Shown here: positions 3,082-37,488 of the stretch, piece by piece | Layout of the letters: the number at the start of each line of letters is the position of its first letter | Position numbering within the stretch: position 1 is the first letter of the stretch | Assembly: GCF_009646095.1 (NCBI RefSeq) | Contig: NZ_CP045725.1 | Coordinates: 868,001 to 932,000 of the forward strand | Length of the DNA: 64,000 nt | Direction: 5' to 3' | Origin: Raineyella fluvialis | GTDB taxonomy: Bacteria; Actinomycetota; Actinomycetes; Propionibacteriales; Propionibacteriaceae | The notes under the pieces: generated by a model | Databases searched by the model: none | What the model was told of the DNA's origin: nothing | What the model saw: the letters and a program-made list of their open reading frames with translations, nothing else | Made by a program: the position numbers and the translations under genes

Positions 3082-3174
3082 ATGCAGCACATCGCCCCAG
3101 CCCCGCACCCCGTCGCCGCCATCGCGGCGATGTCGTGTCGCGCGTGCCGGTGTGGGCGAATGCTGTCGCGCTGA
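3082..3174 (+). CDS. Cys-rich putative attenuation leader peptide
   Basis: A 30-codon frame with GAGGAG four bases before ATG. It begins MQHIAPAPHPVAA and ends MSCRACRCGRMLSR, with three Cys codons in CRACRC close to the stop. It lies 83 bases upstream of the oxygenase gene and resembles a second frame at 34789 ahead of metQNI (shared HPVA, AM.C.RA and RML(S/T)R at the end). Clustered Cys codons just before the stop are what cysteine-responsive attenuation frames of actinobacteria (known in mycobacterial sulfur genes) show. Function as a cysteine sensor is inference; translation is supported by the ribosome site and the paralogue. Confidence 0.6.
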   Translation: MQHIAPAPHPVAAIAAMSCRACRCGRMLSR

Positions 3175-3257
3175 GCCTGTCGGCCCCAGCGCCCGACGCC
3201 TCGGCGCGTCCCCGGACGATCCCCTTTCCGCTCTGCTTGTCCCCAGGAGTTCCTGTC

Positions 3258-4142
3258 ATGTCTCTGTCCACCCTCACGCCCTCCGGCACCCGGCAGCTGC
3301 CGCTCCTCGACCTCGGCCGGCTGCATCCCACCGACCTGCGTTCGGTCGTCCGCGACACCGGCGCCTTCTACCTCACCGGCCACGGCATCCGTCCCGACAT
3401 CCCCGGTCAGCTGCTCGACCTCTCCCGGCTCTTCTTCGCCCTGCCGACCGAGGACAAGGCGGAGGTGGACACCGTGCGCTCCGAGCAGTTCCGTGGTTGG
3501 ACCAGTTTCGGCATCGGCGAAGCCGAGGGCTGGCGCGAACAATTCGACCTCGGCGCCGAACTGCCGGCGATACCGGCCGAGCGGCGCTCCGGGCCCGGCG
3601 ACTCCCTCGTCGGCCCCAACCAGTGGCCCGCCCGCCTGCCCGCCCTGCGGGATCGGGCCCTGTGGTTCCAGGACCGCGCGACGGAGGTCGCCCGGGCGGT
3701 CCTGCGCCAACTCGCCGTCGCTCTCGAACTGGATCCCGAGACCTTCGACCGGAACTTCGCCGGAGACCCTGCGACCTGGACCTCGGTGGCCCGCGAGCTC
3801 GGCGGGGACGGCGTCGCCACCCACCCGATCTCCTCGCACACCGACGCCGGGGTCCTCACCCTGCGGTGGATCGACTCCTGGAGCGAGGCCGCCGACCAGA
3901 CACTCGTGGACCACCGGTGGATCCCGGCCGACCGAGTGCCGGGCGCCTTCCTCGTCACCGTCGGCGACGTGCTGGAGGACCTCACCGACGGATACCTGCG
4001 CGCGGCGCCCCATCGACTGTTGCCGGCGAGCCGGGAACGCGTCACGCTCACGTACACCTTCGACGCGCCCTACGGGGTGGTGCCCCAACCGCTGGACCTG
4101 GCCCACCTGACCGCCGGGGAGTGGTGGCCAGTGGCGGCCTGA
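3258..4142 (+). CDS. Isopenicillin N synthase-family 2OG/Fe(II) oxygenase
   Basis: 294 residues, cytosolic. N-terminal DIOX_N features are GAFYLTGHGI and the region around WTSFGIGEAEGWREQFDLG. The double-stranded beta-helix contains the facial triad: HTD in ISSHTDAGVLTL (about residues 197-199) and the distal His in RAAPHRLLP, followed by the Arg-x-(S/T) 2-oxoglutarate site RVTLTYTF. The ATG at 3258 has CCAGGAG upstream; the frame extends further upstream but without a ribosome site and into the leader. It is transcribed behind the Cys leader and 38 bases before the ferredoxin-reductase gene, so it may act with that reductase. The substrate is unknown; the leader suggests a sulfur compound. 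Confidence 0.8.
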   Translation: MSLSTLTPSGTRQLPLLDLGRLHPTDLRSVVRDTGAFYLTGHGIRPDIPGQLLDLSRLFFALPTEDKAEVDTVRSEQFRGWTSFGIGEAEGWREQFDLGAELPAIPAERRSGPGDSLVGPNQWPARLPALRDRALWFQDRATEVARAVLRQLAVALELDPETFDRNFAGDPATWTSVARELGGDGVATHPISSHTDAGVLTLRWIDSWSEAADQTLVDHRWIPADRVPGAFLVTVGDVLEDLTDGYLRAAPHRLLPASRERVTLTYTFDAPYGVVPQPLDLAHLTAGEWWPVAA

Positions 4143-4180: not shown

Positions 4181-5574
4181 ATGGTGGAGGCACTGCCGTA
4201 CCGCGTCGCCATCGTCGGGGCGGGACCGGCCGGTCTCTTCGCCGCCCAGCACCTCGTCACCCAGCAGCAAGCGCCCGTGCTGGTCGACCTGTTCGACCGG
4301 TTGCCCACCCCGTTCGGGCTGCTCCGGTACGGGGTGGCGCCGGACCACACCAGCATCCGCTCCGTCGCCCAGGCCCTGGCGCACACCTTCGACTCCGCCC
4401 GGGTCCGGTTCCTCGGCACCGTCGACCTGGGGCGCGACATCAGCCGGCGCGAACTCGTCGAGGCGTACGACGCCGTCATCTATGCGGTGGGCGCCTCGGG
4501 TGATCTGATGATGGGCGTGCCCGGAGAGGACCTGCCCGGCAGCGGCTCGGCCCGGCAGTTCGTCGCCTGGTACGGCGGACATCCCGACGCCCAACCGCAG
4601 TCGCTGCGGGGCGTACGCTCCGTCGCCTGCGTCGGGGTGGGCAACGTGGCGGTCGACGTGGCCCGGATCCTCGCCAAGGACCCCGCCACCCTCGCCGGCA
4701 CTGACATGCCGGAGGCCGTCCTGGCCGAGTTGGCCCGCTCGCAGGTGACCGACATCTGGATCATCGGCCGTCGCGGCCCGCAATTCGCCAGCTACACCAC
4801 CAAGGAGTTGCGCGAACTGCTCGCCACGCCGGGGCTGGCGGTGCGTGTCGGGGAAGGCGCGTTCGACGGGATCGAGGAGGACTCCCTGGACCGCCGGACG
4901 GCGGCCAACATCGCTGCCCTGCGCGAGGCCGCCGAGAGGCCCGACCCGGCCGAGGTCCGCCGTCGGCTGCACTTCCTGTTCTGGCACCGTCCGATCGCCC
5001 TGCATGGCACCGACCACGTGGAGACCCTCGAACTGGCCCGGACGAGGCTCGACCCGAACGGTGAGGTGGTGGCCACCGGCGAGGTCGCGACGATACCCGC
5101 GGACCTGGTGCTGCGCTCCATCGGCTACCGGAGCATCCGACTGCCCGGGGTGCCCTTCGACGAGAAGCGCGGTGTGGTGCCCAACCGCGAGGGCCGGGTC
5201 CTGGCCGCCTCCGGCGAGGTGATGCCCGGGGAGTACGTCACCGGCTGGATCAAGCGTGGACCGATCGGTGTCATCGGCACGAACAAGTCCGATGCGGCCG
5301 AGACGGTGGGGCACCTGCTGGAGGACCTGGGCCGGCACCGCGCCATCCGGGCGACCCACTACCGGACCTCCGCCTGCAGGGCGTGCACCCGACAACGTAC
5401 GACGACTGGCTGGCCATCGACGCCGCGGAACTGGCTCGCGGGGAAGCGCTCGGCCGCGCCCGGGTGAAGATCAGCGCGTGGGCGGACCTGATGCGCCTGT
5501 GCCGGGACGGACGGACCGATCTCGTGCCACCGTACGAAAAGACCGACTCACCCTCGACCCACACTTTGTACTAA
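4181..5574 (+). CDS. fprA: FprA-type ferredoxin/adrenodoxin NADP reductase (frame break)
   Basis: About 464 residues after closing one break near 5365. FAD site VAIVGAGPAGLFAA (residues 8-21), PFGLLRYGVAPDH substrate/FAD loop, NADP site CVGVGNVAVDVARIL, and the C-terminal GWIKRGPIGVIGTNK all match the adrenodoxin-reductase-like family, which passes electrons from NADPH to ferredoxin. The C-terminal 63 residues (HPTTYDDWLAID onward, ending at TAA 5572-5574) lie in another frame. Restoring a G (TACCGGGAC) joins them, so the gene is probably intact. AAGGAG precedes the ATG. It follows the oxygenase directly. Confidence 0.85.
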
Positions 5575-32422: not shown

Positions 32423-34440
32423 TCTCCTTCTTCCGGAGCCAGGAGCTCCAGGACTTCTTCGGGACTGGATGCGGAACGGAGCTGGGCCGCGCTGGCGGGA
32501 TCAGCGAGAACGCTGGCCAGGGCGCCGAGGATGCCGACGTGCTCGTCACCGTTCGAGGCGATCGGGATGGCCACGTAGACCGTGTTGCCGTCCCAGTCGA
32601 CCCCCTCGGGGAACTGCAGGAAGCCCAGCCGGGTCTGCTTCACGTACGTACGGCCCTCGTTGGTGCCGTGCGGGATGGCGATGCCGTTGCCCATGAAGGT
32701 CGAGACCTGCTGCTCGCGACCGAACATGGCGTCGGTGTAGGCCGGGTCCGTCGCCCCGATCCCCACGAGGGTGTCGCCGCAGAGCCGGATCACCTCGTCC
32801 TTGGTGCGCGAGGGCAGACCGAGCCGGATGGCCTCCTTGGGCAGGATGTCGGAGGGCAGCTTCTTCTTCGAGCGACGCGGACGGGCAGCGGTGGCCGTGG
32901 CGGCTCCCGCGGCGCCCGTCGTGACGGCGGCAGCACCCGCGGCGGCGGGGGCGGGGGCGACGGCGGCCGCGTGGCCGCTCATCAGGTCCGGACCGATCGG
33001 TTCGCCGGCCTTGATGGCCTCCTCGACCCGGGCGAAGGCGGGATCACCCATGTACACCTTGAAGGGACGATGGCGGCGTTGGGCACCTGGCGACGTGCCC
33101 GGTCGGCCAGACCCTCCTGCGTGAGCACTAGTTGGGCGTCCGGGGGATCTCGTTCACCGGGGTGTGGATCACGTCGACCCCGTACGGCTTGAGCTTCTTC
33201 TTCATGGCGCTGGCGACCATCACGCTGGACCCCATGCCGGCGTCGCAGGCGATGACGACCTGGCGGACATCCTTGCCGCTGATGGTGGGGTTGGCGGCGA
33301 CGGCGGCAGCCGCGGCGGCCGCGGCGGCCTCACCCTCGAGAGGCTCACCGGTCAGCTCCTCCTCGGTGAGCACGTCGGGTTCCTTCCCCTCAGCCTTCAG
33401 CAACAGGAAGGCGACCACGAAGGACACGACCGTGGCGACGCCGAAGTCGGCCAGGTTGGCGAGGTAGTTGCCGCGCGGGGTGACGGCCATCCAGGCGAGG
33501 ATCGAACCGGGCGAGGCGGGGGCGACCAGGCCGGCGCCGAGCACCGTACCGGTGAAGACACCGGACATGCCGCCGAGGATGGTGGCGGCGATCAGCTTCG
33601 GCTTCATCAGCACGTAGGGGAAGAAGATCTCGTGGATGCCACCGAAGAGGTGAATGATGATGGCGCCGGGGACGGTGCCACGCACCACGCGGGGCCGGCG
33701 ATCCAGAAGGCCAGCAGGAGGCCGAAGCCGGGACCGGGGTTGGACTCGACCATGAACAGGATCGAGCTGCCGGCCGCCTTGGCCTGCTCGATGCCGAGCG
33801 GGGTGAGGATGCCGTGGTTGACGGCGTTGTTGAGGAAGAGCACCTTGGCCGGCTCGACCAGGATCGAGGCCAGCGGCAACAGGTGCCGGGAGACCAGGAA
33901 GTCGACGCCACCGGCCATCCAGTTCACCAGGGCGGTGACGACCGGCTCGATCAGGTACCGGCCGAAGATCGCCAGTCCGGCACCAAGGATGCCGATCGAG
34001 AAGGTGTCGACCAGCATCTCGAAGCCGGACGGGACCCGATCCCGGACCACCTTGTCGAACTGCTTCAGCAGCCAGGCGGCCAGCGGACCCATGAACATGG
34101 CACCGAGGAACATCGGGACCGAGGATCCGACGATGACGCCCATCGTGGCGATGGCGCCGATGACGGCGCCGCGCTGGCCATGGACGGTGCGGCCGCCCGT
34201 GTAGCCGATCAGCAGCGGAAGCAGGTAGGTGATGATCGGGTCGACCATCTTGGCGAGGTCGGCGTTCGGGGTCCAGCCCGTCGGGATCACGAACGCGGTG
34301 AGCAGGCCCCAGGCGATGAACGCGCCGATGTTCGGCATGATCATGCCGGCCAGGAACCCGCCGAACTTCTGCACCGTGGCTCGGAACCCGTGACCTTCGA
34401 GGTTCTTGTTGACGCGTGCGTCGGGGAGAGCGAAAGACAT
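32419..34440 (-). CDS. mtlA: Mannitol-type PTS EIICBA fusion (three frame breaks)
   Basis: About 674 residues when three breaks (near 33690, 33140 and 33065) are closed. EIIC (to about 350): FGGFLAGMIMPNIGAFIAWG, NHGILTPLGIEQA, HLFGGIHEIFFPYVLMKP. EIIB: VVIACDAGMGSSVMVASAM with the phospho-Cys. An Ala/Pro-rich linker then leads to EIIA: MGNGIAIPHGTNEG with the phospho-His, ending LELLAPEEGE. Each break is repaired by one C, and the EIIB-EIIA junction then reads continuously (DAQLVLTQEGLADRARRQVPN). A single three-domain transporter is therefore far more likely than separate fragments. ATG at 34440. Confidence 0.85.
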
Positions 34441-34788
34441 CTCAACTCCGTTGGTATGGCTGCCCGCGCGAACGCGAACAGGATCGTCCTTGATCGTGGC
34501 ACCAGACTCCACTGCCCGTTTGTGTTTGTCAAGATGCTCCGATCGTCTGTGCTTTAGCCGTAATGGACCGCCCGATGGAACATCGACACAATTACCTCAC
34601 ACAATCGGGCATCAACTGAGGTCAGCCTTGCCTTTCACGCAAGACCCGCAGGACGTGAGCCACGTAACGGCGCCGATCTGGGGCCCTGCACAGGACCGCC
34701 AGAAACGGGCATGCACCGCTCACCACCCTGACGTGCATAAGACGATTTGTGCCGATCGATAACTTTGGCTAATCTGTGGGCCGTGACC
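34441..34788. other. Divergent intergenic region, PTS and methionine units
   Basis: 348 bases without a gene. An inverted repeat GCCCGAT (34570-34576) / ATCGGGC (34604-34610) may bind a PTS or polyol regulator. The right part holds the 5' region of the leader peptide unit, including AACTTTGGCTAATCT shortly before it. No IolR-type site or clear terminator is seen. Confidence 0.4.
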
Positions 34789-34878
34789 ATGCTCCTCGCC
34801 CCGCACCCGCAGCACCCCGTCGCCCCCGGCGGCGCCATGTGCTGCCGTGCGATGTGGCGGCGAATGCTCACGCGCTGA
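34789..34878 (+). CDS. Cys-containing leader peptide before metQNI
   Basis: 29 codons, starting MLLAPHPQHPVAPGG and ending AMCCRAMWRRMLTR, with an adjacent Cys pair. It is clearly related to the frame at 3082: HPVA, AM(S)C, RA, and the ending RML(S/T)R-stop are shared, and the nucleotides CGAATGCT-(G/C)-(T/A)-CGCGCTGAG around the stop are nearly the same. It ends 80 bases before metQ. Ribosome stalling at the Cys codons could control the methionine transporter; this is inference. The ribosome site is weak. Confidence 0.6.
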   Translation: MLLAPHPQHPVAPGGAMCCRAMWRRMLTR

Positions 34879-34958
34879 GGACTGCGCGACGGACCACCCC
34901 GATCCGGCTCTGACCCGAGCTGGCATCCTTCTGACCGTACCCACACCAAGGACGACAC

Positions 34959-35798
34959 ATGACAATTCGATTCCGCGCGCTCGCCGCCACCATCGCGGCT
35001 CTGACCCTGTCGGCGGTAGGACTCTCCGGATGCACCAAGGGCCAGGAGACGCTGACGATCTCGGCCTCCGCCACGCCGCACGCCGAGATCCTCAAGTACG
35101 TGCAGGACTCCGGCCAGCTCAAGAACACCAAGGTCGAGGTCAAGACGATCTCCGGTGAGATCGACCCCAACCAGCTGCTCGAGGCCGGCGACGTCACCGC
35201 GAACTTCTTCCAGCACAAGCCCTACCTGGACGATTGGCAGCGCCAGCACAAGACGGACAACCTCGTCATCGTCGCGTCCACGCACATCGAGCCGATGGCC
35301 GTCTACTCGCGCAAGTACAAGGCGATCGCCGACATCCCGGCCGGCTCCACGATCGCGGTCCCGAAGGATCCGACCAACTACGCGCGCGCCCTCTACGAGC
35401 TGCAGGGCGCCGGTCTGCTGACGATGAAGCAGCCGGCCGACAAGGCCAACCTGTCGACCATCACTGAAGCCGACATCGCCGCCAACCAGAAGCAGCTCAA
35501 GTTCGTCGAGCTGGACCGCCCGCAGCTGCCGCGTACGCTCGACGACCCGCAGGTCGCCGCCTCGGTGATCAACTCCAACTACGCGATCGAGGCCGGCCTC
35601 AACCCGGCCAAGGACGGCCTGGCCGTGGAGTCCAGCACGAACAACCCGTACGCCAACATCCTCGTGACGACGGCCGCGAAGAAGGACGACGCGGGCATCA
35701 AGGAACTCGCCGCGGCGCTGGAGTCCAAGCAGACGGCGGACTGGATCAAGCAGAAGTACGGTGACTCCATCGTCCCCGTCCATGAGAGTGCCAAGTGA
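34959..35798 (+). CDS. metQ: MetQ/NlpA-family methionine-binding lipoprotein
   Basis: 279 residues. Signal peptide with lipobox LSGC (Cys25), then the NlpA-type binding protein: LTISASATPHAEILKYVQ, NFFQHKPYLDDWQ, HIEPMAVYSRKYKAI, AVPKDPTNYARALYELQGAGL, and ASVINSNYAIEAGLNP. It captures methionine (or a related S-amino acid) outside the membrane for MetNI. It overlaps metN by GTGA. The operon is preceded by the Cys leader. Confidence 0.92.
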   Translation: MTIRFRALAATIAALTLSAVGLSGCTKGQETLTISASATPHAEILKYVQDSGQLKNTKVEVKTISGEIDPNQLLEAGDVTANFFQHKPYLDDWQRQHKTDNLVIVASTHIEPMAVYSRKYKAIADIPAGSTIAVPKDPTNYARALYELQGAGLLTMKQPADKANLSTITEADIAANQKQLKFVELDRPQLPRTLDDPQVAASVINSNYAIEAGLNPAKDGLAVESSTNNPYANILVTTAAKKDDAGIKELAAALESKQTADWIKQKYGDSIVPVHESAK

Positions 35799-36820
35799 TC
35801 GAGATCGACCAGCTCGCCAAGACGTACACCACGCGACAGCATGGTGACGTCAAGGCGCTGACCGGCGTGACGCTGAATGTGCCCGACGGTGCCATCCAAG
35901 GCATCGTCGGGCCTTCGGGCGCCGGCAAGTCAACACTGCTCCGCTGTCTGAACCTGCTGGAGCAACCCACCGGTGGTCGGATCGTCCTCAACGGGGACGA
36001 CCTGACCACTTTGTCGTCCGCCGATCTGCGGGCGGCCCGGCGGCGGATCGGGACGGTCTTCCAGCACTTCGAGTTGTTGCACTCCCGTACGGTCGCCGAC
36101 AACATCGGCCTGCCGCTGGAGCTGGCCAAGGCCTCCGACCAGGAGCGCCGGGACCGGATCGCCGAGCTCGTCGAGCTCGTCGGCCTGCAGGGCCGGGAAC
36201 GCTCGTACCCCTCCCAGTTGTCCGGAGGGCAGCAGCAGCGCGTCGGCATCGCCCGCGCGCTCGCCGCACGCCCGGACGTCCTGCTCTGCGACGAACCGAC
36301 CAGCGCCCTCGACCCGGCCACCACCAGCCAGATCCTCGACCTGCTGGTCCGGGTCAATCGGTCCCTCGGCGTGACCATCGTCCTCATCACGCATGAACTG
36401 GCGGTCGTCCGGCGGATCTGCACCCATGCCGCGCTGCTGGACCATGGCCGTATCACCGAGTCCGGCCCGGTCGTCGACCTGGTCACGGACGCCGGGTCCG
36501 CCCTGGGCCAACTGGTCGCCCCGATCCCGTCCGGAGTGGCGGGCCGCCCCGGAGCCGCCCTGATCACCGCCCTGGACGACGACGCGGACCGGCCCTGGCT
36601 CAGCGAGCTCGCCCGTACGCACGACCTCGACATCTCCGTCGTGGCCGGCGGGGTCGAGCGAATCGCCGGCCGGCGCGTCGGCAAGGTGGTGCTGCAGTTC
36701 GCACCCGACGTGGACCGGGCGATCGTCGAGGACTACCTCCGCCGGCACGAGCAGGTGCAGCTGACCTGGCTCGACCGACTGCCCGCCCCCGCGGCCCCGC
36801 TCGAGGAGGAGCTCGCATGA
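35795..36820 (+). CDS. metN: Methionine ABC transporter ATPase
   Basis: 341 residues. Walker A VGPSGAGKSTLLRCLNLLEQP, signature LSGGQQQRVGIARALAARP, Walker B VLLCDEPTSALDP and H-loop ITHELAVV are intact. A C-terminal NIL/ACT-like domain (about residues 260-335) is the methionine-sensing domain that causes trans-inhibition. The GTG start overlaps the metQ stop and the metI ATG overlaps its own stop, so all three are coupled. Confidence 0.95.
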   Translation: MIEIDQLAKTYTTRQHGDVKALTGVTLNVPDGAIQGIVGPSGAGKSTLLRCLNLLEQPTGGRIVLNGDDLTTLSSADLRAARRRIGTVFQHFELLHSRTVADNIGLPLELAKASDQERRDRIAELVELVGLQGRERSYPSQLSGGQQQRVGIARALAARPDVLLCDEPTSALDPATTSQILDLLVRVNRSLGVTIVLITHELAVVRRICTHAALLDHGRITESGPVVDLVTDAGSALGQLVAPIPSGVAGRPGAALITALDDDADRPWLSELARTHDLDISVVAGGVERIAGRRVGKVVLQFAPDVDRAIVEDYLRRHEQVQLTWLDRLPAPAAPLEEELA

Positions 36821-37488
36821 CTGACAAGGTCACCTGGGTCCAGGCCCTGCCGGAGCTCTGGACGGCGCTGTTGGAGACCGTCTACATGGTCAGCGTCTCG
36901 TTCGTCATCGCCTTCGTGGCCGGCGTCGTGCTGGGCGTCCTGCTGCACGTCACCGAGCGCCGCGGGCTGCGGCCGAACGGCACCGTCAACCAGGTGCTCG
37001 GCACCGTCGTCAACATCGTCCGGTCGATGCCGTTCATCGTGCTGCTGATCCTGCTGCTCGGCCTGACCCGGCTCATCGTCGGCACCGCGATTGGCCCGAC
37101 GGCCGCGATCGTGCCGCTGAGCATCGCCGGCATCCCGTTCTTCGCCCGGGTGGTGGAGAACGCGCTGGCCGAGGTCCCCCGCGGCCGGATCGAGGCCGCG
37201 GCGGCGATGGGTGCCTCGGACATGCAGATCATCCGCAAGGTGCTGCTGCCGGAGGCGGCCAGCGGTGTCATCGCCGGATCCACGCTCACCTTGGTGATGC
37301 TGGTCGGCTCTTCCGCCATGGCCGGTGTCATCGGTGGCGGAGGTCTGGGTGACCTCGCGCTCGTCTACGGTTACCAACGCTTCAACAACCAGGTCCTGAT
37401 CGCCTGCGTCGTGGTATTGATCATCCTGGTGCAGGGTATCCAGATGATCGGGGACGGCTGGCTGCGGGCACGGGCCCACAAGCGCTGA
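36817..37488 (+). CDS. metI: Methionine ABC transporter permease
   Basis: 223 residues, five membrane segments. The permease signature EAAAAMGASDMQIIRKVLLPEAASG contacts the ATPase; RSMPFIVLLILLLGLTRL and AMAGVIGGGGLGDLALVYGYQRF are characteristic of MetI. Third gene of metQNI, started by an ATGA overlap. The next gene (lacI) begins 28 bases later and may be co-transcribed. Confidence 0.95.
   Translation: MTDKVTWVQALPELWTALLETVYMVSVSFVIAFVAGVVLGVLLHVTERRGLRPNGTVNQVLGTVVNIVRSMPFIVLLILLLGLTRLIVGTAIGPTAAIVPLSIAGIPFFARVVENALAEVPRGRIEAAAAMGASDMQIIRKVLLPEAASGVIAGSTLTLVMLVGSSAMAGVIGGGGLGDLALVYGYQRFNNQVLIACVVVLIILVQGIQMIGDGWLRARAHKR

Follow-up and report, generated by a model that had tools for sequence, protein, structure and literature searches.

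What is the function of an open reading frame of only 29 amino acids that stands directly in front of the metQNI operon of Raineyella fluvialis? The preliminary description of the window, the whole 64,000-nt stretch of DNA analysed here, had claimed such a leader at 34789-34878 (+). The frame is present and reads MLLAPHPQHPVAPGGAMCCRAMWRRMLTR-stop, as supported by the sequence, the ORF list and relatives. Its stop codon is separated by 80 nt from the metQ start at 34959, and the genes follow in the order metQ-metN-metI. metQ (34959-35798, +) encodes a methionine-binding lipoprotein (PF03180, E 6.8e-73; the NCBIfam MetQ models score below their curated cut-offs), metN (35795-36820, +) an ATPase with ABC_tran and NIL (PF09383) domains whose best NCBIfam MetN model, TIGR02314, is likewise below cut-off, and metI (36817-37488, +) a permease (PF00528; with 207.6 bits the best NCBIfam MetI model, NF008049, stays short of its cut-off of 212). 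AAGGA at 34948-34952 (+) is the likely metQ Shine-Dalgarno sequence. Divergent from metQ lies a PTS EIIC gene (33128-34512, -), apparently broken into two frames that overlap (33607-34512 and 33128-33688), suggestive of a frameshift or of an error in the sequence. We propose, with a probability of roughly 0.7, that the short frame is a cis-acting leader of the metL type, a cysteine-responsive attenuator of metQNI that works through ribosome stalling, with scarcity raising import.

The leader class itself is not new. The accessible part of PMC8079986 describes a metL leader with the tail CMCRRMCAF before metNIQ of Streptomyces lividans (TK24), reports it as leaderless, calls it methionine-dependent and states that it has no typical Rho-independent structure. 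As judged by its position and predicted tail, the frame at 34789-34878 is to be placed with S. lividans metL, as that text presents it: it is a short ORF directly 5' of a methionine importer operon, carries a C-x-C-R(R)-M tail and has no typical intrinsic terminator. It also ends in R-M-x(1-4)-stop with CGA-AUG, a codon criterion that is our own and absent from the definition in the metL paper. Unlike metL as described there, it has HPVA, the spacing CCRAMWRRM and an Arg before the stop, and metQ is the first gene of the window operon, unlike in metNIQ.

Two other groups of leaders invite comparison, each known to us from partial texts. The leaderless polycysteine uORFs of mycobacteria (Canestrari et al. 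2020, via PMC13236596 and PMC9031893; also PMC4633059) are likewise short frames with Cys codons 5' of sulfur genes, with cysteine sensed by ribosome speed. The window leader differs from them in that its Cys run is just two codons, an importer and not cysteine genes lies downstream, its tail contains CGA-AUG, and masking of the Shine-Dalgarno sequence is not predicted. By analogy with these uORFs, the window leader would work most like a ribosome-mediated attenuator that senses cysteine supply. The candidate cys leader peptides of Mycobacterium, P. acnes and B. longum, in the part of PMC1262725 available, resemble it in having Cys codons near the stop, no terminator and a suggested Rho-dependent control; unlike the window leader, they precede cys or cbs genes, and according to the same text the upstream regions of methionine operons showed no conserved RNA structures. 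In the accessible portions of PMC1262725, PMC13236596, PMC4633059, PMC8079986, PMC9031893 and PMC2965389, the CGA-AUG signature and a metY leader find no mention, and only PMC8079986 describes a metL-type leader; most subscription literature lay outside this search.

How might the window leader be expressed? A putative promoter at 34747-34775 (+), consisting of TTGTGC (34747-34752) and TAATCT (34770-34775), is suggested by the sequence and by two congeners, and a sigma-70 consensus scan made no call there. GATAAC and CTAATCT recur 5' of metQ in two more species of the genus (G002 and G003). The longer series CATAAG..TTG..GATAAC..CTAATCT, at 34735-34780 in the window, is common to all three (L032 and L033 being the other loci), and the CATAAG..CTAATCT block is kept even where a different leader, or none, follows; it may contain an operator besides the promoter. 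Judging by the -10-like TAATCT, transcription likely starts near 34782. A GTG at 34783-34785 (+), 7 nt from the -10, could serve as a leaderless start in place of the ATG at 34789. Because this GTG is in frame and no Shine-Dalgarno sequence precedes the ATG, the arrangement fits a leaderless or nearly leaderless transcript, and its spacing is compatible with the leaderless start published for S. lividans metL in the text available.

Is this leader the only one of its kind? A related frame, MQHIAPAPHPVAAIAAMSCRACRCGRMLSR-stop, lies at 3082-3174 (+). Both carry near the stop codon the signature CGA-ATG-N6-CGC-TGA-G, encoding the tail RM-x-x-R-stop (34861-34879, +, and 3157-3175), which is conserved in pattern and upstream scans. 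The preliminary description had taken the two for one family on the strength of HPVA, AM-x-C, RA and RML(T/S)R-stop, all of which are common to both in the peptide alignment; 16 of 28 residues are identical (single-pair E 1e-5). A non-circular profile built from the oxygenase leaders of the three other species of the genus ranks the metQ leader second among 1255 window frames, at 9.4 bits and E 0.063, and the best scores of 20 residue-shuffled sets range from 6.4 to 11.5 bits. The protein similarity is thus weak and by itself not significant. At the DNA level, in contrast, each of the four oxygenase leaders of the genus finds its best match among 6352 non-self windows in the metQ leader, at 37-39.5 versus 24-28 for the best elsewhere (mean about 12, sd 2.7). 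The metQ leader resembles all four to much the same degree, which gives it little appearance of having been copied recently from the local one. CGAATG-N6-CGCTGAG has exactly two matches in the 3.65-Mb genome, namely the two leaders, and the reversed control pattern has none. A tail profile also finds just these two, with weak scores (E 1.1 and 1.9), and is insensitive, missing the known oxygenase leader of G002, so that the count of two rests mainly on the signature pattern. The single family therefore stands, and the resemblance exceeds that of random frames in the DNA though not in the protein. A downstream CCG.CTCTG stretch that had been counted among the common traits proved to be chance (3 window matches versus 6.1 expected, none at the other leader). 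The suggested search with a two-leader profile, run over 57 relatives, recovered members of the genus and, beyond it, just background (E 0.003 or worse). A further pattern, CGAATGCNNNCGCTGA, was mis-spaced, missed the window's own leaders and was rejected as uninformative.

Behind the second leader stand a 2OG-Fe(II) oxygenase (DIOX_N and 2OG-FeII_Oxy domain matches; 3258-4142, +) and an FAD/NAD(P) oxidoreductase (PF07992; 4181-5467, +). By eye, the frame of the oxidoreductase is seemingly lost near 5390, and the bases to about 5573 (+) appear to continue in another frame. An oxygenase leader with the signature is present in all four genomes analysed for the genus, with the oxygenase match starting at most 130 nt past its stop; the oxygenases of the other three congeners are 64-80% identical, and the leaders have a conserved -10, a Shine-Dalgarno sequence and a predicted post-stop hairpin. 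Upstream of 24 distant oxygenase homologues (36-41% identity), no CGAATG occurs in the scanned stretch and no RM-tail leader was seen (for one re-anchored homologue, L271, the scan covered only 416 nt). Another, L279, has a different Cys-rich short frame without an RM tail. Among solved structures, the one nearest in sequence to the window oxygenase (9ovh, E 5.6e-33) is that of an ethylene/succinate-forming enzyme dependent on 2-oxoglutarate, from which no sulfur role is evident. Of the common sulfur-amino-acid control system that had been proposed, the family's ties elsewhere to metQ, metN and metY hold, whereas a link of the oxygenase to sulfur metabolism finds no support; in the organism's own genome, such a system rests on two genes, those behind the two members found there.

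Leaders before metQ recur across the Propionibacteriaceae. Of 197 family genomes, 86 have a metQ match, with 87 places in all; 86 upstream regions were scanned, L119 being left out as too short. A Cys/Met-rich short ORF with an R-M or R-x-M tail occurs in 22 of these 86 regions on the forward strand and in none on the reverse strand; the other 64 have no such leader by these criteria, among them the regions upstream of metQ in G218 and of the second tandem metQ copy in G076. A scan of 85 regions with less exact anchors counted 20 forward and 0 reverse, with a shuffle mean of 0.1. The model R1, built from the metQ leaders of ten relatives, has 12 strong hits in the 197 family genomes (E 2.7e-17 or better), all just 5' of metQ by coordinates; ten are the model's own sequences and two are further ones (G065 and G119). 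Over 394 genomes of the taxonomic class, R1 gave 38 matches in 35 genomes, and none of the 30 that were read is a convincing leader, so R1 appears confined to a few genera. In another genus of the family, the frames APMCTCCCR, APMCMCCCRKS and APLCMCCCRKS (L179, L180 and L181) precede a similar small gene, DUF4395 at L179; these are polycysteine leaders without an RM tail. Within the genus of the window organism, a Cys leader is present before metQ of G000, and G003 has a matching promoter and no leader. The metQ leader of G002, MSVSFAPRTRRMPGR, is free of Cys, with short GC-rich tandem repeats seen by eye between it and metQ (L033). In G001 no metQ match reaches E 1e-30, and there is just one of 37%. 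Such differences among congeners suggest that the module turns over quickly.

Does the class extend further? With the metL peptide published for S. lividans as query, a Streptomyces-like leader (a name coined in this analysis, as are "regulon" and "module") was found in 20 of 20 genomes of one genus (E 3.2e-11 to 0.065), each with a MetN match starting 167-269 nt past its stop. Three Actinomadura species have MCCRRMCDR-stop before metN (3/3), and two genomes of two other families carry the leaders MCCCRMTSR and MCIRRMCCR before metY, the identity of MetY resting on NCBIfam for the first 60 residues of one and on 72% identity of the second to the first. A hairpin loop, GCCCCGAA, is a trait of the Streptomyces-like and Actinomadura leaders; it is found near neither window leader, is also absent from the aligned Propionibacteriaceae leaders and forms no part of the class definition. 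Among 369 genomes of the taxonomic class, the signature has 41 matches in 38 genomes (reversed pattern 7, counted from the table). Eleven are leaders of the class, two in the window genome, seven before metN and two before metY, and the other 30 have no MetN, MetQ, MetI, MetY or oxygenase match in the following 1200 nt or the available part of it. The pattern WKBWKBTGYCGNCGAATG gave 36 matches in 394 genomes, 30 of them with loci; six of these 30 reach a stop within 8 codons, and none has a recognised sulfur gene at the start of the next frame, the part that was checked. A pattern run on genome contigs yielded 14 stretches, of which five were accepted (three Actinomadura, two Propionibacteriaceae), seven had no recognised sulfur gene and two failed the in-frame filter.

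What could the RNA do? The preliminary description had called for alternative hairpins, and in the metQ leaders of the ten relatives the Cys-codon, stop-codon and downstream segments are indeed predicted to pair in two mutually exclusive ways. The alternative helices are paired in 95.8% and 93.0% of cells versus at most 57.3% when slid; their counts are not clearly above the shuffle control (reached by 49-52 and 79-94 of 500 shuffles), because the ten sequences are too alike. The window leader is predicted to fold differently, its Cys codons pairing upstream with the HPQHP codons, and no downstream copy like that of the ten relatives was seen in it by eye. One predicted hairpin, CGCGC..GCGCG (34871-34888, +), spans its stop codon, and another, GATCCGGCTC..GAGCTGGCATC (34901-34927, +), lies in the interval before metQ. 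For 26 leaders of the Streptomyces-like and Actinomadura groups, folding predicts the main hairpin with the ribosome stalled (23) as well as at the stop (24); being present in both states in nearly all, it gives no sign of a switch. Masking of the Shine-Dalgarno sequence was considered and dropped, since the modelled exposure shows no consistent change: in the window it is 0.65 with the ribosome stalled and 0.62 at the stop, that is, unchanged, and in eight relatives, with the stall at the first Cys, it is higher in four, lower in two and about equal in two. The stretch from the leader stop to metQ is C-rich (C/G 1.65 versus 1.26 in metQ), which would suit Rho but proves nothing.

Could the operon be controlled in a more familiar manner, or the frame be accidental? 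Classical transcription attenuation through an intrinsic terminator 3' of the leader seems improbable: folding does predict hairpins past the stop codon in the groups to which it was applied, but the terminator scan of the window found no GC stem with a T-run before metQNI, no T-run follows the hairpin at 34901-34927, and metL of S. lividans is likewise described, in the accessible part of PMC8079986, without a typical Rho-independent structure. Rfam 15 was also searched. Riboswitches or T-boxes control met genes in other bacteria, and an element of this kind might govern metQNI with the ORF merely incidental. We regard this as very improbable, since nothing in the window attains the gathering score of an Rfam family and 34600-35000 yields no hit even up to E 1, hits at the relatives' loci lie far below gathering scores, the SAM family RF00162 is absent genome-wide (the search for the other SAM families covered the window), and the ORF frame is conserved among relatives. 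That two GC-rich frames resemble each other by chance, and that the ORF itself is accidental, might be argued from the protein profile, with its E of only 0.063; the DNA-level score, the uniqueness of the signature in the genome and the recurrence in upstream regions across the family refute it for practical purposes.

More weight attaches to the question of which part of the leader is the sensor. The tandem Cys codons TGC TGC (34840-34845, +) are the proposed stall site, suggested by the sequence and by the Cys-rich tails of relatives, for which Cys itself was a search criterion. Alternatively, the segment CGA-AUG-N6-CGC-UGA-G might sense, through a decoding pause at CGA-AUG or as an RNA site for a trans-acting factor, with Cys secondary. 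CGA encodes the Arg directly before the tail Met in 20 of the 20 family leaders that have one there (the remaining two of the 22 carry TGC-ATG), and likewise in 20 of 20 metL leaders of the Streptomyces-like group and 4 of 4 oxygenase leaders of the genus. As a background, seven window genes use CGA for 12 of their 170 Arg codons, and at 11 loci of relatives the longest frames use it for 20%, perhaps an overestimate with the frame unchecked. Such invariance indicates that the tail is conserved at the nucleotide or codon level; the earlier suggestion that the basic ending matters thus survives as a codon signature and not simply as basic residues. The spacing from signature to stop is identical in Actinomadura and the window, and the Cys-less G002 leader retains the whole signature. 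We nevertheless hold sensing by this segment to be rather unlikely: the other assigned leaders contain Cys codons, although many were searched for with Cys as a criterion, TGC-ATG replaces CGA-ATG in two family leaders, most family tails are without CGC before the stop, and no partner RNA or protein is known.

How, then, would cysteine stalling control import? A ribosome would translate the leader ahead of metQNI. A shortage of charged Cys-tRNA, perhaps also of Met-tRNA, would make it pause on the pair of Cys codons, which lies 11-12 codons ahead of the stop; with ample supply it would continue to the leader stop codon. The two positions would free different RNA around the stop codon for pairing, and this would set the amount of full metQNI mRNA or protein, scarcity giving more import. 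The output could be Rho-dependent termination, a termination/antitermination hairpin or metQ translation. Cysteine as the sensed amino acid, the pause and the direction of control are all three what we infer; tandem Cys codons in many Propionibacteriaceae and Actinomadura leaders point to cysteine besides methionine.

We favour cysteine-stalling attenuation as the best explanation because the two leaders are homologous in DNA and the signature occurs only at them in the genome, because upstream ORFs of this kind occur on the forward and never on the reverse strand and CGA is fixed against its window background, and because the ten relatives have predicted alternative helices and the strong R1 hits in the family all lie before metQ. 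MetN behind all Streptomyces-like and Actinomadura leaders, MetY behind two others, S. lividans metL (PMC8079986, as accessible) and, as precedent, the partly accessible accounts of mycobacterial uORFs add to this. Counted against it are the 64 metQ regions without a leader, G003 with no leader and G002 with a Cys-less one, the missing T-run terminator, the mixed Shine-Dalgarno exposure, the 26 leaders in which no switch is seen, the missing downstream copy in the window leader and helix counts near the shuffle control.

What does this mean for actinobacterial sulfur metabolism? Tentatively, actinobacteria may have in common a small sulfur regulon in which one RNA/peptide module, Cys codons plus CGA-AUG-N6-CGC-UGA-G, stands before metQNI or metNIQ, metY and the oxygenase of this genus, with CGA-AUG by the stop as a dedicated pause or recognition signal and not a by-product of the peptide, and with the module moving among the promoters of close relatives by gain, copying and loss. 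Should the CGA-AUG/stop module prove to do the work, attenuators would have a part of an unusual kind, conserved in codon choice. With the nucleotide signature as a guide, the mechanism can be tested by changing single codons synonymously. New here are the class members in Propionibacteriaceae and Actinomadura, the CGA-AUG signature, the tiny leaders before metY and the oxygenase leader; a leader class described in Streptomyces now extends to both these groups and to metY.
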